Part shown: one piece after another, positions 3,305 to 55,508 of the stretch
Numbering within the stretch: the stretch's first letter is position 1
Layout of the letters: every line of letters begins with the position of its first letter
From: Chloroflexota bacterium
GTDB lineage: Bacteria > Chloroflexota > UBA6077 > SHYK01
NCBI GenBank assembly: GCA_035652535.1
Contig: DASRDP010000093.1
Span: forward strand, 1-64,000
DNA length: 64,000 bases
Direction: 5' to 3'
Notes under the pieces: generated by a model
The model's database searches: none
The model's input: only the letters and a program-made list of their open reading frames with translations
What the model was told of the DNA's origin: nothing
Made by a program: the position numbers and the translations under genes

Positions 3305-3402
3305 GCCATCACAGTCGCCAGGAATCGTCGGACCAGCGGGCGGGAAGCTCGTCGAGCGAGCGCTCTTGCAGCAGGTCGGGCGCGATTCAGGGGGGAGGGT
3401 CC

Positions 3403-4668
3403 ATGCTCACGAAGGAAGAAAACGCGCTGCTGACCCAAATCGGACCAGGCACGCCCTGCGGCGAGCTGCTCCGACGTTACTGGCATCCAGTGGCCCTCAC
3501 GCGTGAGCTGACCGACGATCGGCCCATGCGGCGGGTCAAAATCCTCGGCGAGGAGCTGGTCCTTTTCCGCCAGCCCGACGGCGCGTTCGGGTTGGTGGGC
3601 GAGCACTGCTCGCATCGCGGGACGTCGCTATACTACGGCTTCCTTGAGGACGGCGGGATCCGCTGTCCATACCACGGCTGGCTTTACGACGCCGTGGGGC
3701 GCTGCGTCGAGCAGCCCTTCGAGCCAGCGCAATCGATGCTCAAGCACACCCTTCGCCACCCCGCGTACCCGGTCCAGGAGCTGGCCGGCATCCTGTTCGC
3801 CTATCTGGGGCCGCCCGAGCGCCAGCCGCTGCTTCCCCGATGGGACGTCCTGGTCTGGGAGGGCGGCATCAGGACGCTGCGCCGCCAGCAAACCCTCTCG
3901 TGCAACTGGCTGCAGGCGGAAGAGAACTCGGCGGACGTCACGCACACGTACTTCCTCCACGGCCACGCGATGAAGGCCAAGGGGCTGCAGGGCGGTCAGT
4001 ACTACTACCGGCCCATCGAGCGCTTCGGGTTCCAGCCCTTCGAGTTCGGCCTGCTGAAAAGCTGGCACTACCAGGACGGCGGCACCCGGTTCGGGGAGGA
4101 GCGCGGAGGCGGAAACCCGCTCATCTTCCCGAACATGCTGCGCGTCCGCGAGGGCGCCTGGCATGCGATCCACTGGCGGGTACCCATCGACGACGCCCAC
4201 ACCGAGATCTTCTGGGCGGGCTTCATGCGTGACGCGGACGTGGAGCGCGGCCGATGGCTCGCCGACGCGGACCGCGAGGGCGAGGTTCGTCTCACGGGAC
4301 CCAACGGCGAATACACGATGGACACCTTCCCCAGCCAGGACACGATGGCGTGGGAGACCCAGGGCGCGATCTTCGATCGCGGCCGCGAGCATCTCGGAGC
4401 GTCCGACCAGGGCATCGCGCTGTTCCGGCAGATGCTGCGCGACCAGATCGAGGCGGTCCAGCGGGGCGACGACCCGATGGCGCTCGTCCGCGATCCGGAG
4501 AGGAATCGCATCATCGAAGTGCCCGAGTGGGTCGCCGAGTTCGAGTCGCCCGACCTGACCGACCTAAGCGGCACGAGCCCCACGTTCACGTCCATGGCGG
4601 ACGTCTTCGACGAGCGGCACCAGGTGTTCGAGGTGCCGTTTGGCGCCGCGCGGCCGCGAGCGAGTTAG
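3403..4668 (+). CDS. Rieske aromatic ring-hydroxylating oxygenase, alpha subunit
   Basis: This 421-residue oxygenase belongs to the phthalate-dioxygenase/O-demethylase group of homo-oligomeric Rieske enzymes. The [2Fe-2S] ligands are C69-x-H71 and C88-x2-H91. The mononuclear iron motif is D178, H181, H186 in NSADVTHTYFLH, and a QGAIFDRGREHLGASDQGI block follows near the C-terminus. The ATG at 3403 is chosen because it follows GGGGGGAGGG and gives the MLTKEEN start seen in its paralogues. The open frame extends further upstream, but that part is not conserved. The enzyme needs an electron-donating reductase, and none is present here. It is followed after 10 bases by an EutA-like gene. The substrate is unknown; hydroxylation and O-demethylation are both possible. 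Confidence 0.93.
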   Translation: MLTKEENALLTQIGPGTPCGELLRRYWHPVALTRELTDDRPMRRVKILGEELVLFRQPDGAFGLVGEHCSHRGTSLYYGFLEDGGIRCPYHGWLYDAVGRCVEQPFEPAQSMLKHTLRHPAYPVQELAGILFAYLGPPERQPLLPRWDVLVWEGGIRTLRRQQTLSCNWLQAEENSADVTHTYFLHGHAMKAKGLQGGQYYYRPIERFGFQPFEFGLLKSWHYQDGGTRFGEERGGGNPLIFPNMLRVREGAWHAIHWRVPIDDAHTEIFWAGFMRDADVERGRWLADADREGEVRLTGPNGEYTMDTFPSQDTMAWETQGAIFDRGREHLGASDQGIALFRQMLRDQIEAVQRGDDPMALVRDPERNRIIEVPEWVAEFESPDLTDLSGTSPTFTSMADVFDERHQVFEVPFGAARPRAS

Positions 4669-4678
4669 TCCGGGCCGC

Positions 4679-6283
4679 ATGGTCAGCTCATTCACACACG
4701 AGCACGGCGGCGAGGGCGTCCACCGTCATGGGCCAGGTGAGTCCCACTCTCACGCGATCGAGAGCTTCGCCGAGCACGGCCACTTCCACGAGGAAGACCT
4801 GGTCGCCCTCATGGCGCAGGACACGACCATCGACGCCATCTCCACCGCGGGGATCAATCCAGGGTGGATGGTCCTCAACAGCGTTGGCATCGACATCGGG
4901 TCGTCGACCTCGCACCTTACCTTCTCGCGCCTCTTTCTCGAGCGTCAGGGGCTGGAGATGTCCAGCCGTTTCGTCACCGTCCGCCGGGACGTGCTCTATC
5001 GCTCACCGATCCAGCTCACCTCCTATCTGGACGTCGAGACTATCGACGTGGATCTCCTCTCCGCCTTCGTTCGCGAGAGCTACGAACGGGCCGGCGTCGA
5101 TCCGTCGGAGATCCACACCGGCGCGGTGATCTGCACGGGCGAGGCCGTTCGCAAGCGCAACGCCGAGGCGATCACGCGCCTCTTCTCCCACATGGGCGGA
5201 AAGTTCGTGTGCGCAACGGCCGGTCCTCGGCTGGAGGCGATCCTCGCCGCCCACGGCTCCGGATCGGTAGCCCGATCGCGGGATCGGCTCACCGTCATGA
5301 ACGTCGACGTCGGCGGGGGTACGACGAAGATCACGGTCGTTCGCGATGGCGCGATTCTGGAAACGGGGGCCATCAACGTCGGAGCGCGCCTCCTGGCCTG
5401 GGACCCGGCCACGGGACGTCTGAACCGAATCGAGGTGAGCGGGCGCCGCATCGCGGAGGCCATCGGCATCGCTCCCGAGATCGGCGGGACCCTGTCGGAG
5501 GACGAGAAGTGGCGCTTCGCGCGGTCCCTGGTCGACCGCCTGCTCGCCTACCTCGCCGGCGATTCGACGAGCCCGCTCATCGAGGCTCTGCTCATCACCG
5601 GGCCGCTGGTGTTCCGAGGGCGCGTCGACGAGGTGATTTTTTCCGGGGGCGTCGGCGAGTTCATCTACGATCGCGAGGCGGCCGACTACGGGGATTTTGG
5701 TCGCTACCTCGCCGCCGAGATCCAACGGCGGATCTCCGACTTCCCCGGTCCCGTCGCCGAGGGGGCCGAGGCGATCCGCGCGACCGTCATCGGCGCCTCC
5801 CAATACACCGTTCAGGTCTCCAGCAGCACCATTTTTCTATCGGATCCGTCGATGCTGCCCATGCGCGATTTCCAGGTCGTTGCGCCGCGATTTTCCGGCG
5901 CCGAGGCCGACGAGGGATCCGTCGCCCTGGCCATTACGGATGCGATGGCGCGCTACGATCTCCTGGACGCGGCCACGGCGCATCCGGTGGCGTTGTACCT
6001 CGCATGGCCGCACGAGACCTCGTACGCGAACCTCTCGATGCTCGCGGGCGGCATCGTTCGAGCGCTGGCGCCGGTCAACGACGGCAAGCCCCTGGTGCTT
6101 ATCTTCGACCGCGACATCGGCGCGCTGGTCGGGGCCCTCATCAAGGAGGACATGGAGGTCCCGAACGCAGTCGTCGCGGTCGACGAGGTCGAGGTGAAGG
6201 AGCTGGACTTCGTGGACGTGGGCCAGCCCCTGGGCAATCGATCGGCGGTGCCCGTCGTGGTGAAGTCGCTGATCTTCGAGTAG
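4679..6283 (+). CDS. EutA-like ASKHA ATPase with His-rich N-terminus
   Basis: This 534-residue protein resembles the ethanolamine ammonia-lyase reactivating factor EutA, which uses ATP to expel damaged cobalamin from its target. The ASKHA phosphate-1 motif VGIDIGSSTSHLTFSRL is at residues 69-85 and phosphate-2 MNVDVGGGTTKITV is near 207-220. The adenosine-type motif FSGGVGEFIY follows later. Residues 1-37 hold nine histidines in H-x-H pairs (7/9, 15/17, 23/25, 33/35/37), suggesting metal binding. The ATG at 4679 lies 10 bases after the Rieske stop, so the two genes are probably one operon. No eutB or eutC is present, so the partner is probably not ethanolamine ammonia-lyase. A second copy lies at 32900-34651. 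Confidence 0.85.
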   Translation: MVSSFTHEHGGEGVHRHGPGESHSHAIESFAEHGHFHEEDLVALMAQDTTIDAISTAGINPGWMVLNSVGIDIGSSTSHLTFSRLFLERQGLEMSSRFVTVRRDVLYRSPIQLTSYLDVETIDVDLLSAFVRESYERAGVDPSEIHTGAVICTGEAVRKRNAEAITRLFSHMGGKFVCATAGPRLEAILAAHGSGSVARSRDRLTVMNVDVGGGTTKITVVRDGAILETGAINVGARLLAWDPATGRLNRIEVSGRRIAEAIGIAPEIGGTLSEDEKWRFARSLVDRLLAYLAGDSTSPLIEALLITGPLVFRGRVDEVIFSGGVGEFIYDREAADYGDFGRYLAAEIQRRISDFPGPVAEGAEAIRATVIGASQYTVQVSSSTIFLSDPSMLPMRDFQVVAPRFSGAEADEGSVALAITDAMARYDLLDAATAHPVALYLAWPHETSYANLSMLAGGIVRALAPVNDGKPLVLIFDRDIGALVGALIKEDMEVPNAVVAVDEVEVKELDFVDVGQPLGNRSAVPVVVKSLIFE

Positions 6284-9784: not shown

Positions 9785-10774
9785 TCACCGCCAGTAGGCG
9801 AACGCCATCCCACACCCAGTGCCCGCGGGCGAGCGGTAGGCAGGGATGTAGTCGCCGATCAGGTGCACGTCCATCGGCTCCATGGCCCCGGCCACCGTGA
9901 TCCAGTTGCGGATCTCGGACGTGCCCAGATTCAGTCGCTCGCGCGGGAGATTGCGCAGGGCATCCGCGTCCTTTTCCATTACGCCGTCGAGCGTGGCGTG
10001 GTCGATCTCCTCGTCGAGGATCGTGTGGCTGAGACCCCCCGAGGCGACGACGGCGACCCGCTTGTCGCTCTCCCAGGACTCAATCGCCTCCCGCAGCCGC
10101 TGGCCCAGCGCGTAGCAGCGGGCGGGCGTGGGCTGGTTTGGCGGAAAGAAGGTGTTGATCATGAAGGGGACCATGGGAACGTCCCCGTTGGGCAGCATGA
10201 ACTCGTACAGGAAGGTGAAGGCGTGGCCCAGGCCCACCTCTTTCTTGAGTTGGTTGGAGCACGCGATGTCGAACCCGTCGTCGCGCAGGCGATCGATCAG
10301 GTGCTCGGCCAGCGCCGGCTCGCAGGGGTGGTCTCCCCACACGTTGAGCCGCTCCGCGATGGCCTCCTGGATCTCATCCAGCCGCGCGGCATTCCACATG
10401 CCCGAACCGGACCGCGCGTTATGCCCGCGCCGGGTCACCGCGACGGATTCCCCCCGGTAGACGCAGAACATCGGCATCAGCTCGTCGTGGAACTGCTCGT
10501 GCTGATCGTCGCCGACGACGACGAGAACGTCTGGAACCGCCTCGGCCAGGACCTGCGAGAGCTGCTTCAGGGACGTCTGGCACGCATCGTACCGCTCGCG
10601 CAGTCGGGCATCGGCTAGCTCGGAGTCCATGTCCGGCTTCGCGCGTTTCAACAAGTCCGCGTAGTTGATACGGCGATCCGTCTCGTCTTTCTCGCGCAGG
10701 GCATACCACCCCTCGAGGGGCAGGCGCAGCTGCGGCGCGTGTGGGGTCGCGATGCCAACAACGATTTCGGCCAT
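9785..10774 (-). CDS. Class III (LigB-type) extradiol ring-cleavage dioxygenase
   Basis: This 329-residue non-haem Fe(II) dioxygenase belongs to the protocatechuate 4,5-/gallate dioxygenase superfamily, which opens a catechol ring next to its hydroxyls. The first iron histidine is H12 in ATPHAPQL. The conserved GDDQHEQFHDELMP segment (about 88-101) and the GGLSHTILDEEIDH segment carry the other active-site residues. The ATG follows AAGGAGCGAGATC. A hydrolase gene overlaps its end, and a decayed binding-protein remnant lies just upstream. The copy at 22657-23643 sits next to an intact binding-protein gene in the same order. The catechol substrate is not predictable from sequence alone. Confidence 0.88.
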   Translation of the reverse strand: MAEIVVGIATPHAPQLRLPLEGWYALREKDETDRRINYADLLKRAKPDMDSELADARLRERYDACQTSLKQLSQVLAEAVPDVLVVVGDDQHEQFHDELMPMFCVYRGESVAVTRRGHNARSGSGMWNAARLDEIQEAIAERLNVWGDHPCEPALAEHLIDRLRDDGFDIACSNQLKKEVGLGHAFTFLYEFMLPNGDVPMVPFMINTFFPPNQPTPARCYALGQRLREAIESWESDKRVAVVASGGLSHTILDEEIDHATLDGVMEKDADALRNLPRERLNLGTSEIRNWITVAGAMEPMDVHLIGDYIPAYRSPAGTGCGMAFAYWR

Positions 10775-10787
10775 GATCTCGCTCCTT

Positions 10788-11190
10788 CTAGCTCAGCTCC
10801 CATTCGTAGACGTTCCAGTTCACCAGGGTGTCCAGGGCGTGCGGATCGGGCCCGTGCAGCGACGCCAGGTGGGCCGTGATGTTCGGATCCAGTACAGGCT
10901 CACGATCGGCAGCTCCTCGCTGATGATGCGGGCCATCTCGATGATCTGGCGCGTCCGTTCCGCGGGTTCCAACGTTGAGTTATACGCCTCCCACAGCCGA
11001 TCGTAATCGGGATTGGACCAGCCGGCAAAGTTCGACCCGCGCCAGCCGTTGTCCGCTTCAGACTTGATGTCGGCCGTCGTCCAGTTCGCCAGGTTGACGG
11101 CGCCGCCCTTCCAGGCGGGCGAAGCCGACGCCGTGAGGAGCGCGGGGAAGACGGCCCGGGCGGGTCCGTCGCGGATCTGGACCGACGGCA
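10788..11190 (-). pseudogene. Remnant of a family-5 substrate-binding protein (C-terminal part, frameshifted)
   Basis: Minus-strand translation gives PSVQIRDGPARAVFPALLT and then the SBP_bac_5 C-terminal pattern GWSNPDYDRLWEAYNSTLEP. Near 10888 a one-base deletion shifts frame: LYWIRTSRP in one frame should continue as PNITAHLASLHGPD in another. That second frame runs to the family ending WNVYEWELS and TAG at 10788. About 440 N-terminal residues, including the signal peptide and lipobox, are missing. The gene is therefore dead. It lies just upstream of the LigB gene, where the second LigB locus has an intact binding-protein gene. Confidence 0.8.
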
Positions 11191-11390
11191 GGCCTCGCGC
11201 GTGCGTCTCGAGGTCGCCCGCCTTGCGAACCATGTACACGCGCATCCCGAAGTCTGTCTCCTCGGGAACGATCTCCGGCGCTGCGCTCCCCATCATGCGG
11301 GGATCGCGCTCGAGAGGTCCCGATGGAGGAATGAGACGTGCGCGGGGTCGAGGGCGAGCCGTCGGAGCGCGTCCCGCGCCACTGTTCGAG
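11191..11390 (-). pseudogene. Remnant of a Rieske oxygenase catalytic domain
   Basis: One minus-strand frame reads LALDPAHVSFLHRDL (about 11313-11358), the iron-binding D-x2-H-x4-H motif of Rieske oxygenases. It compares with CDSSHLSFLHRSF in the intact enzyme at 34919. A second frame then continues with EIVPEETDFGMRVYMVRKAG, matching YETEDTDFGVRLIALRDA there. A frameshift separates the two parts, and the Rieske domain itself is gone. The second frame runs without interruption into the binding-protein remnant at about 11190, so a deletion has fused two formerly separate genes. Bases 11391-11670 hold no gene I can support. Confidence 0.65.
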
Positions 11391-11670
11391 GGAGAGACGC
11401 TGGTTCGCACCGTCGATGCAGAGGGGGACGAGCACACAGTCGAATCCCGCGCGCGCCGCGTTCTCGCGCACGCGGGGCCCAGCGGCGGTCGCGCTCCGCC
11501 AGCGAATAGCCTGGCCAGATCTCGCCGCTATCGTCGCCCGTGGAGGCCCAAGGATATCACGGCCCCGTCTGTGCATACACTTGGAAAGACGCCCCGCACA
11601 GCCGGCCGTTGACCGATCGCCGTCTTCCATGGTTCAATGACCCACTTCGAGCGAAACGAGGAGCGTGCAG

Positions 11671-31173: not shown

Positions 31174-32883
31174 TCAGCTCCCGCCGGCCGTCCAGCGGTG
31201 CGCATCCCACACGTCGCCCGGTGAGCTGACGTTTTTCAGGCGGCTGGACACCACCGTCGGTGAGATGTCCCAGAACATGCCAAGCACGACGAGCTGGCTC
31301 GTCATGATCTGAACGATCCGGCCCAGCACCTGCATTCGCTCGGCCACCGGCACGGTGACAAAGTATCGATCGATAAGCGAATCCAGCTCCTCGTTCTTGT
31401 AGCGCGGCCGGTTGATGCCCGTGTAGTTGTTCTCCGGCAGCGGCGTGTAGCCGCCATAGAAGCGCTCGACGTTCTTCGCGCCTCCGGGCTGGCGCACGAC
31501 CTCGAACGCTGGCCGCGTCGCGCGATACTCGCGGTCCGACTCGCGCTGCTGCGGCACCGCTACCTGGTCCACCCCCACGCCCACCTGCTGCCAATCGTCC
31601 GCAAGCGCGTACATCGTCTTCATCTGCGTGTCGTCGGTGGCCGTGCTGCGAATCTCGACCGTCAGACGCTGGCCGGTCGCGTCGCGGAACGTTCCGTCCG
31701 ACCCGCGAACGTAGCCAAGCCCCTCGATCGTCTGCGCGGCCGCCGGTGGATCGTAGGCGTACTTGACGATACTCGACTCGATGGCGCTCCTCTCGCTGGC
31801 GGACTCGTTTACGATGCAGTCGGCAATAGGGGCGAGCCCGCCCAGCAGACTGTCGATGAGCTGTCGGCGATTCGCGCCCTGCATCAGCGCCCGGCGGAAC
31901 TGGACGTCGGCGACGACGGCCGGATTGGGGTTGATGAACTGCGGATACGCGCCGAGGTACGTGGTCGGCGTGCTGTGCTCCACCTTTCCATCGCGCCACT
32001 GGTCCGCGAGCTGCGCTCCCCACTCATAGGACAAGCGGCCGCCCAGGGTCAGGTCCACGCCGCCGGAAAGCACGTTCGCCGCCATCGCCGAGGGGTCGGG
32101 AATAAACTTCACCTCGATCTGGTCGATCTGAGGCCTCCCCAGGACGAACGCATCGTTCGCGTCGAGGATCACGTGGGTCCCCGCTTCCCATTCACGAAGC
32201 TTGAATGGGCCAGTTCCGACAAACTCGCGGTTCCAGTAGGGGAGGTTGACGAAGTCTTCCTTGTCGGTCGTGTAGGTCTTCTCGAGCAGATGTCGCGGCA
32301 GCGGGAGGGCGCGAGCGTTGGTGAACATCGTGTCCGCTTCGATGAACGGCCGCTTCCAGTGGATCGTGATGGTCTGCGTATCCGGCGCCTCGACCCGGTC
32401 GACCGAGCTGTATGCGACGTTGCGAAAGATCGGCAGCTCGGCATCCTGTTCCACGCTGGCGGTGAAAAGCAGATCCGCTGATGTGAAGGGCGTCCCGTCG
32501 TGCCAGGCGGCGCCTGATCGAATCTTCCACGTCGTCTGCATCGTACCGTCGGGATAGACGACCCAGAGCCCGTTCTCCACGGACGGCACCGCTTCCGCGA
32601 GCTGCGCGTGGAGTGCATCCGTCGAGTCCTGGATCGCGAGGCCGGCGTTCAGCAGCGTCTCGGTCTCCGAGACGCCGGGCACGCCTCCGGCGCCTGCCGC
32701 CGAGTTGAGCTTCGCACTCAGCGTCTTCGGGTCGCCGCGAATGCCGATGGCGATCCGCTTCGGGCCCGCCGTGGGCTGGGCAGGCGCTGGGCCACCGGGC
32801 GCCGAGCGCGTCCCGTCCGGCGCGGTGCAGCCGAGGACCACGAGCACGAGGGCAGCGCCAACGACGCGGGTGAGCGCCCCCAT
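31174..32883 (-). CDS. ABC transporter substrate-binding lipoprotein, family 5
   Basis: This 569-residue exported lipoprotein has lipobox VLGC with C19. The family segment GAAWHDGTPFTSADLLFTAS is clear, and the end WDAHRWTAGGS is a degenerate version of the common terminal motif. The ATG is close to the hydrophobic core, giving a compact signal peptide. It lies only 16 bases downstream of the EutA-like gene on the same strand, so the two are very likely cotranscribed. This associates an extracytoplasmic ligand-binding protein with a cytoplasmic His-rich ATPase. The 196-base convergent gap downstream has GC-rich hairpins but no gene. Confidence 0.92.
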   Translation of the reverse strand: MGALTRVVGAALVLVVLGCTAPDGTRSAPGGPAPAQPTAGPKRIAIGIRGDPKTLSAKLNSAAGAGGVPGVSETETLLNAGLAIQDSTDALHAQLAEAVPSVENGLWVVYPDGTMQTTWKIRSGAAWHDGTPFTSADLLFTASVEQDAELPIFRNVAYSSVDRVEAPDTQTITIHWKRPFIEADTMFTNARALPLPRHLLEKTYTTDKEDFVNLPYWNREFVGTGPFKLREWEAGTHVILDANDAFVLGRPQIDQIEVKFIPDPSAMAANVLSGGVDLTLGGRLSYEWGAQLADQWRDGKVEHSTPTTYLGAYPQFINPNPAVVADVQFRRALMQGANRRQLIDSLLGGLAPIADCIVNESASERSAIESSIVKYAYDPPAAAQTIEGLGYVRGSDGTFRDATGQRLTVEIRSTATDDTQMKTMYALADDWQQVGVGVDQVAVPQQRESDREYRATRPAFEVVRQPGGAKNVERFYGGYTPLPENNYTGINRPRYKNEELDSLIDRYFVTVPVAERMQVLGRIVQIMTSQLVVLGMFWDISPTVVSSRLKNVSSPGDVWDAHRWTAGGS

Positions 32884-32899: not shown

Positions 32900-34651
32900 T
32901 CAGTGGGTGTGCGGGTGATCATGGTCGTGGTGATGGTCGTGATCGTGATCGTGATCGTGATCGTGATGATGATCGTGGTCGTGCTCGTGGTCGTGCGCAT
33001 GGGCGAGGGCACCCGCCCCGCGGACGAGGCCGGACTCGCGCTCGCGGGCCGTGCTGAATACGAGAGACTTCACCACGACCGGCACCGCGTGCACGTCCTC
33101 CAGCTCCTCGCCCAGATCGATGAAGTCCAGATCGCCGAGGGTCACCTCGTCGATGGAGACGATGTCGTAGTCCGGCAGCAGCTCGCGGGTCAGCAGGCTG
33201 CCGACCGCGCCCCCGATGTCCGTGTCGAACACGATGGTGAGGGGGATTTTCGCCGCGATGGTGTTCGGCATGGCGGCCACGATCGCCTCGGCGAGGGTCT
33301 TGACCCGGTCGTACGAGGGCTCCATTCGCCAGCGGAAGGAGAGGGCGACGGGTCGATCCCCCTCCTCGATGTCGAGGCGCTGCATCGCCTGCTCGATGGC
33401 CACCCTGGCCGACTCGACCGTATAGGTCCCATCGGGCATGACGGGCGCCACGACCTGGAGGTTTCGATGCGGCAGGAGCTCGGGCCGCGTGATGTAGATG
33501 GTGCTGCCGCTGACCTGCAGCGTGTATTGGCCAGCGCCGATGACGGTCGCGCGGATCATCTGCTCCGAGGTGTCCATGGGCACGCCGAGGCGTACGACGC
33601 GGTCGGCGACGGCCTTCCCCAGAAGGATGCCGAGATCGCCAAAGTTTCGCGGCTCGTTGCCGTACACGTACTCAGAGACTCCACCTGAGAAGCTCACGGA
33701 GTCAATGGGCCCCGTGTACGTGAGCGGCCCAGTGATCATGAGGCGATTGGCCAGCCGGCCGAGCGGGCGCCGCTCCGCCACGTTGTAGAGGCACTCGGCG
33801 AGCAGCTCGGCCATGGCCTTCTGGTGCTCGGGTGAGAGGGGCGCGCCCACGACGAGGGGGATGCCCAGCTCGTCAGCGATGATCTGCCCTGCCAGCTCGA
33901 TGCGACTCACCAGGCCCTTTTCATCCATCGCCACGAGCCGCGCACCGACGTTGATGGCCGCCGTCTCGAGGACCTCGCCGTCGCGACAGATGGCGAGCTT
34001 GGCGGTGCCGCCGCCCATGTCGATGTTCATCACCGTGTGCGACTGTCCATCGCGCCGGGCGGAGCGCGCGCAGGCGCCCGAGCCGTAGGCGGCCATGACC
34101 GCCTCCAGGTTCGGGCCGGCCACGGCGCACACGAACTTGCCCGCGTGCTCGGCGAACAACGCGGAGATCGCCTCGGCGTTGCTCTTCTTCGCCGCCTCGC
34201 CGGTGAAGATCGTGGCGCCCGTCTCCACGTCGTCGACGGTCATCTGGGCGTCCTTGTACACACCCTGGATGAAGCGCTCAAGCTCTTCTGTGTCGATCGT
34301 CGTTTCGTCGACGTACGGGGTGAGGAGGATGGGCGAGCGGAAGGTGATGCCTCGCTCCACGACCTTGAAGCGGCTCGAGAGGGCGATGCCCTGCCGCTCG
34401 AGGACGAGGCGGGAAAACATCAGGTGGGAGGTGGAGGACCCGACGTCGATGCCCACGCTGGTGAGGGTGATCCGGTTCCCCGCCTCCTCTGGCGTGAGGA
34501 TCACCATCTCCTCTTCGCCGGGATGGGTATGGAAGAAGGGGTCGTCGTGGATGTGCCCGAACATCCCCTCGGCATGGTCATGGGCGCCCCAGTGCCCGTG
34601 CTCGTGCATCTGGTCGGCCGTTGTCGGGTTTCCGGCTTCCGTTGGTTCCAT
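32900..34651 (-). CDS. EutA-like ASKHA ATPase with His-rich N-terminus and poly-(His-Asp) C-terminal tail
   Basis: This 583-residue protein is a paralogue of the protein at 4679. ASKHA motifs are TSVGIDVGSSTSHLMFSRL near the N-terminus, MNIDMGGGTAKLAICRDG in the middle and FSGGVSEYVYG after it. Residues 16-43 carry nine histidines. The final 34 residues alternate His with Asp, with 19 histidines in total. Such tails are known in nickel/zinc/cobalt handling proteins (HypB, CooJ, ZnuA-type loops), so metal binding is likely. EutA itself lacks such a tail. The ATG follows GAGGAGT. It is divergent from a Rieske gene and cotranscribed with a binding lipoprotein. With no ammonia-lyase genes present, reactivation or metal loading of another metalloenzyme is the likelier role. 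Confidence 0.87.
   Translation of the reverse strand: MEPTEAGNPTTADQMHEHGHWGAHDHAEGMFGHIHDDPFFHTHPGEEEMVILTPEEAGNRITLTSVGIDVGSSTSHLMFSRLVLERQGIALSSRFKVVERGITFRSPILLTPYVDETTIDTEELERFIQGVYKDAQMTVDDVETGATIFTGEAAKKSNAEAISALFAEHAGKFVCAVAGPNLEAVMAAYGSGACARSARRDGQSHTVMNIDMGGGTAKLAICRDGEVLETAAINVGARLVAMDEKGLVSRIELAGQIIADELGIPLVVGAPLSPEHQKAMAELLAECLYNVAERRPLGRLANRLMITGPLTYTGPIDSVSFSGGVSEYVYGNEPRNFGDLGILLGKAVADRVVRLGVPMDTSEQMIRATVIGAGQYTLQVSGSTIYITRPELLPHRNLQVVAPVMPDGTYTVESARVAIEQAMQRLDIEEGDRPVALSFRWRMEPSYDRVKTLAEAIVAAMPNTIAAKIPLTIVFDTDIGGAVGSLLTRELLPDYDIVSIDEVTLGDLDFIDLGEELEDVHAVPVVVKSLVFSTARERESGLVRGAGALAHAHDHEHDHDHHHDHDHDHDHDHHHDHDHPHTH
32905..33004. repeat. Low-complexity GATCGT-rich tract encoding the His-Asp tail
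   Basis: On the plus strand the sequence is dominated by repeats of GATCGT and GGTCGT, including at least four consecutive GATCGT units near 32940-32965. On the minus strand these read as alternating CAC/CAT and GAT/GAC codons. Slippage in such a tract would change tail length in steps of two codons without frameshift. Confidence 0.8.
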
Positions 34652-34918
34652 ACTCCTCTACGGTCCTCCGAGCTGAAAATCTCTGCCGTCACGGAACTGC
34701 GCAACGTGGGTCAGGCGCGACGTTACCGGCTCCATCCCGCCGATCGGGGGCCCGACGCGACGGAAGTCCTCGCACTCGGAGGCGGAGTCATTGGGTTCGT
34801 GATCCGCGAGGCTATTCTGGTGGTACGAGTGTATCTGCAATTGATGGCGATCACAAGAAAATCCAGGGCTTGACGGGAAGGCCGCCGGCGGGCCAGGATG
34901 GCATCATCGGAGGGGAGG

Positions 34919-36217
34919 ATGCTGAGCAAAGAACAGAACCAGCTATTGACCCAGACGGACCGGGGAACACCGATGGGCGAATTGATGCGCCGATACTGGC
35001 TGCCGGCGCTGCTCAGCGAGGAGATCCCTGCGCCGGATTGCCCGCCCGTCCAGGTGCGGCTGCTCGGCGAGGACCTGGTCGCCTTTCGCGACACGAACGG
35101 CCGAATCGGACTGCTCGCCGAAGCGTGCTCGCACCGGGGGACCAGCCTCTTCTACGGACGCAACGAGGAGGGCGGGCTTCGGTGCATCTATCACGGGTGG
35201 AAATACGACGCGGAGGGGCGCGTGCTCGACACGCCGGCCGAGCCGGCCGGCAGCACCTTCAGGCAGCGCGTGAGCCATCCCGCGTACCCAACACGCGAGG
35301 TGGGCGGGATGGTGTTCGCCTACATGGGACCGCCCGAGCGCGAGCCGCTCTTCCCCGCGTACGAGTGGGCCGGCCTCCCCGCGGAGCAGTGCTACGCGAC
35401 GAAGGCGATCCAGGACTGCAACTACCTCCAGGGGCTGGAGGGCGAGTGCGACTCGTCCCACCTCTCGTTCCTGCACCGCAGCTTCCGATTCGAGCTTCCC
35501 TCCGACACCGCGCCACGCTACGAAACGGAGGACACCGACTTCGGCGTCCGACTCATCGCCCTGCGCGACGCGCCCGGTGGCGCGACGTACGTCCGCGTGT
35601 CGTCGTTCATCCTCCCGGTCGCGTGCGCCGTCCCGGTCGGGCGCGGGGGCACGAGCCTCGATACCTCTGAGGGGTACGAGGTGCACTTCTATACGCCGAT
35701 CGACGATACACACTCGGCGCGATTCGACTTCGGGTTCAATCGGCGGCGGCCCATCGAGCCCGACGAGCCCGTGCGCCGGCGGGCCATCGGTCCCGGCTAC
35801 CGCCGCTTCGCCAACGCCGCGAACCACTATCTGCAGGACCGAGAGAAGCAGCGGACCGAGAACTACACGGGGATGACGGACTTCGGGTTCGGTAGCTTCC
35901 TCGCCCACGATTCCTGCGCGACGGAGAGCATGGGTCCGCTCTACGATCGGAGCCGCGAGCACCTGGGGGTCAGCGACCTAGGCGTCATCTCCGTGCGCAG
36001 GCGGCTGCTGGACGTGGTCCAGGCCTTCCAGCGAGGCGAGCAGCCGGCCCACGTGGTGACCGAGCCCGCCCGCAACGTGATGACCCACGTCACATCCTTC
36101 GCGGAGATCTCCGATGCGGCCAATTGGCGCGCCGAATATCCGGGCCTCGCGTCGTCGGCCGAGGAGGCGCGAGCGGACGTTCCCGGGCACGCGCGCGTTT
36201 CGGTGGCTTCCCGGTAG
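34919..36217 (+). CDS. Rieske aromatic ring-hydroxylating oxygenase, alpha subunit
   Basis: This 432-residue protein has [2Fe-2S] ligands C70, H72, C89 and H92. The iron ligands are D178, H181 and H186 in EGECDSSHLSFLHRSF. The C-terminal block SMGPLYDRSREHLGVSDLGV is typical of the larger phthalate-type oxygenases. The ATG at 34919 directly follows GGAGGGGAGG and gives MLSKEQN; an in-frame ATG seven codons upstream is less well placed. It is divergent from the EutA-like gene across 267 bases and is the closest visible relative of the Rieske remnant near 11300. It repeats the Rieske/EutA-like/binding-protein association of the 1.5-6.3 kb region. Confidence 0.93.
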   Translation: MLSKEQNQLLTQTDRGTPMGELMRRYWLPALLSEEIPAPDCPPVQVRLLGEDLVAFRDTNGRIGLLAEACSHRGTSLFYGRNEEGGLRCIYHGWKYDAEGRVLDTPAEPAGSTFRQRVSHPAYPTREVGGMVFAYMGPPEREPLFPAYEWAGLPAEQCYATKAIQDCNYLQGLEGECDSSHLSFLHRSFRFELPSDTAPRYETEDTDFGVRLIALRDAPGGATYVRVSSFILPVACAVPVGRGGTSLDTSEGYEVHFYTPIDDTHSARFDFGFNRRRPIEPDEPVRRRAIGPGYRRFANAANHYLQDREKQRTENYTGMTDFGFGSFLAHDSCATESMGPLYDRSREHLGVSDLGVISVRRRLLDVVQAFQRGEQPAHVVTEPARNVMTHVTSFAEISDAANWRAEYPGLASSAEEARADVPGHARVSVASR

Positions 36218-54297: not shown

Positions 54298-55395
54298 CTA
54301 TGCGCGAGCTCGGCGCCGCGGATGGTCCATCGTGACCTCCGCGCCGTTCTTCCGACACTCGGACTCGAAGCGATCAAAGACGTCCGGGTCCTCATCCTCG
54401 TACTCGATCTGCCAGCCGCCCTCTTTCTCGCTCAGGTCGGCTCCCTGGTGGTTCGCCATCGTGTTGCCGACGTAGAGGCCGCCGAAGGTGTACGCCAGAT
54501 AGCGCGCCGGCTCCGGGCCGCTGTTGAAGTGCTGATGGTACTGGCCATCCATCGGTGAGAAGATGGAGCCCTCTTTCCACGGCACCATCTGCTTTTCCTT
54601 GTCGCCCTTGAACCAGAGCAGCGAGTAGCCGATGCCGCTCAAGATGATGATCTCCGCGCCCGGGCCGTGATGGTGCGCCTTCTTGTAGCTCCCCGGAGGA
54701 AATTCGCTCATGTGGGCCGACATTGCATTGCCCGACATGACGAAGAACATGTTCGTGCCGCCGGCGCCCCGCTCCTTCCAACTCTCGAGCTTGAAGGAGC
54801 GCGTGTCGGGAATGAAGTTCGTCTGCCACCGGCGAATGCCGATCTTCTTGCCCGGATCGGTGAAGTAGTCGTCCTCGCCGCTGTATCGATCCTTGAACAC
54901 GTAGTCGGTGTTGAAGGGGAACTCCTGGTCCCGAACCGCGTTCATCTGCAGCGGGCACGTCGTCGCGGTGAAGAGTCGGGCCGGCTTCTGTCCATCGAGG
55001 TTGAAGTGCTGATAGTAGCAATTCAGGGGCGGGGAGAAGAGGCTACCGGCCTGCCACTCCACCGTCTGCTTCTTGGTCGATCCGGGCTGCCAGATGGTGG
55101 TGGCGCCGCGCCCATCGACCACGTAGTAGGTGGACTCGAAGAGGTGGTGCAGCTCCTTGGTCTGTCCGCCCGGGGCGATCTCCATCAGCCAGCCGTCGTT
55201 CTGCTCCTGGGCGGCGAGGTTGATGATGGCGCCCTTCTGCCCGATCCGCTCCCACGGCTTGACATCCGCGGTATGGAGATCCGAAACGTGGGAGCCCTCA
55301 TAGACGGGCACGCCCTCTTCGGCCTTCCAGAGCGAGTAGGCCGTGGGGCCCCGGGTCCAATTCGCGCGGGTGCTACCGTTTTCCTGCTCGGTCAC
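54298..55395 (-). CDS. Bicupin protein
   Basis: This 365-residue protein has two cupin domains. The C-terminal one has a full metal site: H241, H243 and E248 in KAHHHGPGAEIIILSG, then H287 in SPMDGQYHQHFN. The N-terminal one has LHHLFESTYYVVDGRG and SPPLNCYYQHFN, a less canonical site. GTG at 55395 follows GGAGGATCGATC. Bicupins include gentisate-type ring-cleaving dioxygenases and oxalate decarboxylases. The surroundings favour an oxygenase, but the C-terminal site alone does not decide it. It may cooperate with no neighbour: the next gene on this strand is 113 bases away. Confidence 0.8.
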   Translation of the reverse strand: MTEQENGSTRANWTRGPTAYSLWKAEEGVPVYEGSHVSDLHTADVKPWERIGQKGAIINLAAQEQNDGWLMEIAPGGQTKELHHLFESTYYVVDGRGATTIWQPGSTKKQTVEWQAGSLFSPPLNCYYQHFNLDGQKPARLFTATTCPLQMNAVRDQEFPFNTDYVFKDRYSGEDDYFTDPGKKIGIRRWQTNFIPDTRSFKLESWKERGAGGTNMFFVMSGNAMSAHMSEFPPGSYKKAHHHGPGAEIIILSGIGYSLLWFKGDKEKQMVPWKEGSIFSPMDGQYHQHFNSGPEPARYLAYTFGGLYVGNTMANHQGADLSEKEGGWQIEYEDEDPDVFDRFESECRKNGAEVTMDHPRRRARA

Positions 55396-55508
55396 GATCG
55401 ATCCTCCGAACATTCTGTTCCGCCGCCGCCGTTTGGGAGCCAGACAGCCCGAGCAGCGGCGCGCCGGTGGGGTGGTCTAACCGATGATACAAGAATGAGA
55501 CCCGGCAG

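Follow-up and report, generated by a model that had tools for sequence, protein, structure and literature searches.

What does a EutA-family ATPase with histidine-rich ends do in a genome without ethanolamine ammonia-lyase? Genes of this family are automatically annotated as ethanolamine ammonia-lyase reactivases, and the one considered here lies at 32900..34651 of a stretch of 64,000 nucleotides (hereafter the window). The window (1-64000) is a dense catabolic island in which Rieske oxygenases number about ten and SBP_bac_5 binding proteins about nine. It also encodes amidohydrolases, luciferase-like monooxygenases and three ring-cleavage dioxygenases (two LigB-type, one BphC-like), and it contains two EutA-like genes.

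An ASKHA core with His/Asp-rich ends

The open reading frame runs from 34651 to 32900 on the minus strand, which the original prediction left unstated, begins with ATG and encodes 583 amino acids. Its identification as a EutA-like ASKHA ATPase rests on its placement in a tree, an AF2 model (pLDDT 82, pTM 0.80) and a match to PF06277 (Pfam EutA) of 423.7 bits (cut-off 27), which takes in residues 62-532 and profile positions 2-474 of 475, placing the ASKHA/EutA core at 33056..34468 on the minus strand. The complete set of ASKHA motifs named in the original prediction was found (DVGSST at residues 69-74, DMGGGT at 211-216 and FSGGVSEY at 321-328), with G67, G71, D211, G213-215, G323 and G324 invariant, and D69 nearly so, in an alignment of 74 homologues. 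Foldseek with the model retrieved ASKHA folds, headed by 1hux, while a sequence search of the PDB returned no EutA structure, its matches (CbiX and PA4063, for example) being confined to low-complexity His stretches. Pfam detected EutA alone, with no P-loop GTPase domain of the G3E type (PF02492; HypB/UreG/CobW).

Both ends of the protein are rich in His and Asp, and recounting gave the same numbers as originally reported, namely nine His within residues 16-43 (34523..34606, minus strand; positions 16, 18, 20, 24, 26, 33, 35, 41 and 43) and 19 His, together with 10 Asp, in the last 34 residues (550-583; 32903..33004, minus strand). Structure prediction places disorder at residues 12-42 and 535-564, and the two ends are potentially metal-binding segments, judging from their composition. 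At the DNA level, the tail is a 6-bp GAY-CAY array (TRF period 6, 13.5 copies), and the number of (CAYGAY)n matches expected in shuffled windows is zero. A sequence artefact was ruled out as its source, as the tail is in frame before the stop and is partly retained in an orthologue.

Conservation of the tail among close orthologues is mixed, with 13 His retained in L043 (80% identical to the window protein) but only three in L044 (~70% identical). Across the family, at least eight His occur in the last 35 residues of 12/125 EutA-like proteins versus 1/711 neighbouring reference genes, and in 78 of the 125 the 45 residues preceding the core include at least three His. C-tails with at least four His are present in just 17 of the 125 homologues and require eight changes on the tree, suggesting that the tail is labile but recurrent, and its recurrence includes a clearly nickel-linked homologue from the Comamonadaceae (G108). 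In many members the N terminus is short or poor in His, and a C-tail is absent from most. Of the two ends, the N-terminal His/Asp segment is found more often and the C-tail is a labile ornament, a pattern that fits an optional metal store with no part in core catalysis. Long His tails are weakly associated with nickel genes (Fisher p ~0.03), a result that is not relied upon here.

Variation at the ends takes other forms elsewhere. For example, several EutA-like proteins of a Binatia/deltaproteobacterial clade (L045, L049-L056, L059) end in a run of His such as RGHHHHHHH; in this clade the EutA-like gene is divergent from a gene for a DUF4175 protein, with TPR genes nearby. Some Rhizobiales loci (L100, L109, L114) carry bicupin genes (see below) and two EutA-like genes each, of which one copy has both His-rich ends and the other has neither, a hint of specialised pairs.

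A EutBC-free clade and its probable bicupin partner

The original prediction placed this ATPase away from any ethanolamine ammonia-lyase and would be contradicted by co-regulated eutB/eutC elsewhere in the genome. A profile search of the window genome (98.3% complete) for EutB (PF06751) found none, and EutB was also absent in 11 relatives with strong EutA hits (12 genomes counting the window's own) and in 47/50 other genomes that hold EutA-like loci. In the sole EutB-bearing relative, EutB lies ~180 bp from a canonical EutA. The tree agrees with this division: it comprises 131 proteins and is a quick LG+G4 reconstruction with some long branches, so only its main split is relied on, which separates the proteins linked to EutBC (from E. 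coli, C. difficile, two haloarchaea and G054) from 125 EutA-like rows with an SH-aLRT of 99. The window protein falls among the latter. A long-branched row whose gene context is not known (L169) clusters with the canonical side.

The window genome itself encodes four full-length PF06277 proteins, three of which had been overlooked. The second copy (4679..6283, plus strand) is 45% identical to the first, lacks a C-tail but is rich in His at the N terminus, and lies directly downstream of a Rieske oxygenase gene (3394..4668, plus strand); the third and fourth are at L007:11899-13563 and L008:9752-11437. In the 20-kb stretches examined around these genes, a Rieske oxygenase borders three of the four, while the fourth overlaps a gene for a two-cupin protein. 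Copy number ranges from four to about ten in some genomes.

An ordinary EutA whose eutBC partner has been lost or was left unassembled would explain why the best NCBIfam family is 'ethanolamine ammonia-lyase reactivating factor EutA'. However, that match (357 bits) is under the equivalog cut-off of 598, and the separate clade, the multiple copies per genome and the absence of EutB from so many genomes make this explanation highly improbable; it was discarded.

The chief partner, missed in the original prediction, emerged from an all-against-all comparison of the open reading frames around 112 distinct EutA-like homologues. The dominant neighbour is a protein of 370-410 amino acids with two cupin domains (hereafter bicupin), encoded within 1.5 kb of the EutA-like gene in 78/125 tree rows and, in the 112-locus set, on the same strand within 30 bp at 26 loci and within 150 bp at 45. 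To test for co-inheritance, whole genomes were searched with a profile built from the bicupins at EutA-like loci, which helps detection at those loci but does not explain absences elsewhere. Among relatives (n = 61), bicupins were present in 12/12 genomes with EutA-like genes versus 2/49 others (Fisher p 5e-11), and among 297 Rhizobiales genomes in 7/7 versus 0/290 (p 3e-14); these p-values are inflated by relatedness, although the pattern is seen in several phyla. An eighth Rhizobiales genome with EutA holds the canonical-side member L169 and has no bicupin; the family is missing from the genomes with canonical-clade EutA (G054, G348). Of the further genomes with EutA-like genes, 47/50 encode bicupins, the three exceptions being Thorarchaeota. 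In the Binatia no bicupin lies beside the EutA-like gene, yet each genome has 4-33 elsewhere. Similarly, the EutA-like gene at 32900..34651 has no adjacent bicupin, the nearest in the window being ~20 kb away (54298..55413, minus strand), one of at least 32 in its genome. No EutA-bicupin fusion proteins were found. Taken together, adjacency and co-inheritance identify the bicupin, rather than EutBC, as very probably the partner of the EutA-like branch.

Two lineages differ in gene content. The Thorarchaeota (L069, L085, L092, L093, L103, L107, L111) form a deep EutA-like branch without His-rich ends, and the three genomes searched encode neither EutB nor bicupin. Rhodospirillaceae-type loci (L077, L079, L084, L105) keep the order UbiD decarboxylase, EutA-like, NicO and have no bicupin nearby, but the genomes searched encode bicupins elsewhere; at these loci UbiD may be a second client.

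The bicupin is likely a metal enzyme. An alignment of 55 sequences shows no variation at H248, H302 or H304, and H250 is shared by 54/55; all four fall in the second cupin (motifs YxKxHxH and HQHF), and no His is fully conserved in the first. The exception at H250 is the bicupin that overlaps the fourth EutA-like paralogue (L008:11434-12597), in which Asp replaces the second His of HxH, with a local insertion. No specific family describes these proteins: Pfam reports only Cupin_2, NCBIfam gives only weak hits to gentisate and 5-aminosalicylate dioxygenases, and a PDB sequence search found nothing useful. A confident AlphaFold model (pLDDT 88, pTM 0.85) has a double-cupin fold, and the nearest solved folds are oxalate decarboxylase OxdC and MncA, with gentisate dioxygenase lower; the TM-scores are only ~0.46, indicating that the two domains are arranged differently or that their arrangement is uncertain.

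Oxygenase neighbours, nickel genes and alternative clients

In the window, the EutA-like gene is followed at 16 bp by a gene for an SBP_bac_5 ABC-transporter binding protein (31174..32883, minus strand; Pfam match), which is probably co-transcribed with it in one operon; L043 retains this gene order. The divergent neighbour of the EutA-like gene encodes a Rieske oxygenase of the LigXa_C type (34898..36217, plus strand; Pfam match), which is 38-46% identical to Rieske oxygenases beside EutA-like loci in other phyla versus about 35% to its best paralogue in the window. This closer resemblance to oxygenases at distant EutA loci suggests that EutA, bicupin and this Rieske type recur together, and from the sequences the three probably act in one aromatic-compound pathway.

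The adjacent oxygenases had been suggested as a possible client, in which case the ATPase would reactivate LigXa-type oxygenases or load iron into their mononuclear site. The shared gene neighbourhood is real, as three of the four paralogues in the window genome border Rieske genes and the same subfamily occurs at EutA-like loci of Alphaproteobacteria, Betaproteobacteria and one Firmicute. However, a Rieske gene lies within 1.5 kb in only 9/125 homologues, far fewer than for the bicupin, and adjacency is scattered over the tree (six changes for six rows). An iron oxygenase is also a poor fit to the nickel genes described below, and Rieske oxygenases as a group often occur where EutA does not. 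The Rieske oxygenase was therefore downgraded as a general partner on the adjacency counts; it is unlikely to be what the ATPase serves and is probably a pathway companion of the bicupin rather than the sole client.

Evidence on the metal comes from other genomes. On a plasmid of Phyllobacterium zundukense, genes for NikR, a HoxN/NixA transporter, EutA, cupin, a class II aldolase and a Rieske oxygenase are adjacent. In two Comamonadaceae (G103 and G108), the gene for a EutA-like protein that is His-rich at both ends, with seven His among the first 50 residues, precedes NicO and a convergent NikR, and further along comes a Rieske oxygenase of the window's type; in G108, the EutA-like protein has 26 His in its last 75 residues and a CobW GTPase gene comes next after NicO and NikR. 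In the cultured Firmicute Cohnella kolymensis, the genome's only NikR forms one group with CbiM, CbiQ and an ABC ATPase. It lies ~20 kb from the bicupin, also the only one in the genome, and its EutA (L096:8720-9910 and 9932-11500, respectively), and the interval holds a Rieske oxygenase that shares 40% identity with that of the window. NicO also occurs at Rhizobiales loci (L158, L161, L162) and at the Rhodospirillaceae loci with UbiD, and in five genomes the NicO of the EutA locus is the only PF03824 gene found, though several genomes in this survey were picked because NicO had already been seen and the counts give no unbiased rate. In C. kolymensis, a gene ~2.4 kb from the bicupin-EutA pair (L096:13915-14400) encodes a rhodanese-like protein whose N terminus is a long poly-His/Asp stretch.

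The predicted role as a metal-handling ATPase thus fits the links to NikR, NicO/NixA, ECF Ni/Co transport and CobW in other genomes, but a search of the window genome found neither NicO nor NikR, so nickel is extrapolated there from other phyla. NicO and CbiM also transport cobalt. On balance nickel is somewhat favoured as the metal, with cobalt possible in the window genome.

Cobalt transport would also suit a reactivase for some other B12 enzyme, with NicO and CbiM supplying the metal, and this reading draws on membership of the EutA family, whose canonical member exchanges cobalamin on ethanolamine ammonia-lyase (PMC9426561). It is nonetheless distinctly unlikely, given the missing EutB, the lack of any corrinoid protein among the scanned representatives of neighbour clusters, a NikR that is nickel-specific by family definition and a co-inherited protein that is a cupin. 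A further possibility is that the protein is a regulatory or small-molecule kinase-like member of the catabolic cluster with His segments that are incidental or buffer metal, as the ASKHA fold includes kinases and sensors and the tails are low-complexity and labile. This too is quite unlikely: strict co-inheritance with one metalloprotein family and the nickel linkage are better suited to maintenance of a client, and the EutA core is conserved at full length, including its C-terminal part.

Proposed role and relation to known systems

We favour a role for the EutA-like protein as an ATP-dependent insertase or reactivase of a metal, probably nickel, for bicupin enzymes in aromatic catabolism, and give this reading a probability of roughly 0.55. 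The family would then serve bicupin metalloproteins, not ethanolamine ammonia-lyase, and the bicupin client would work with the LigXa-type Rieske oxygenase on aromatic compounds. By analogy with the cobalamin exchange of canonical EutA, binding and hydrolysis of ATP would open the bicupin, which would eject a dead or mis-metallated centre, after which metal, probably Ni(II), would be inserted; the disordered His/Asp N terminus, and in some lineages also the C-tail, would hold the metal. The observations behind this reading are genomic. ATP-driven insertion or reactivation stands at about even odds, whereas the more specific proposal, in which a dedicated EutA-like ASKHA ATPase stores nickel in its own His-rich segments and maintains the metallation of a nickel-dependent bicupin family, is tentative and falls somewhat short of that.

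If the bicupin pairing and the nickel link hold, they would correct a common misannotation, as a whole clade named for ethanolamine ammonia-lyase is tied instead to bicupins, and would add a metallocentre-maintenance system and a probable new class of metal-dependent enzymes of aromatic degradation. If the nickel-bicupin/ATPase pair is real, its ATPase would be the first EutA-type reactivase known on a non-B12 enzyme. Bicupin paralogues number in the tens in some genomes of Chloroflexota and Binatia, and a SAR202 group VII genome has 17; the family has expanded strongly among soil and marine organisms that degrade recalcitrant organic matter. Cultured hosts exist in C. kolymensis, P. zundukense and Sinorhizobium mexicanum. 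The full text of 5.39 million open papers, a scope outside which most subscription-journal papers and all bioRxiv preprints fall, contained no description of a EutA-cupin or EutA-Rieske link, and the SAR202 pangenome paper that describes an expansion of Rieske proteins is silent on both cupin and EutA. In papers on ectoine, the name EutA presumably denotes a different protein.

Among known systems, the bicupin shares the double-cupin fold with OxdC, MncA and gentisate 1,2-dioxygenase, but at 10-15% identity and with a four-His site that, unlike theirs, has no conserved Glu in the second cupin. HypB, UreE and CooJ are His-rich nickel metallochaperones, and the EutA-like proteins resemble them in their poly-His/Asp segments, in the nickel-uptake genes nearby in several genomes and in the involvement of an NTPase. 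The NTPase here is of the ASKHA fold rather than a G3E GTPase, and G108 has a separate CobW/G3E GTPase close by. HgdC/BadF (1hux), the best structural match, is likewise an ASKHA ATPase that activates a metalloenzyme, as proposed for the EutA-like protein, although the folds overlap only partially and HgdC, an electron-injecting Fe-S protein, is shorter. Canonical EutA shares homology over the full 475-position model, the ATPase motifs and, presumably, a common principle of ATP-driven rescue of a metal-cofactor enzyme, but the EutA-like family differs from it in forming a separate clade without EutBC and in its His/Asp-rich ends, bicupin partner, and Rieske and nickel-transport neighbours.
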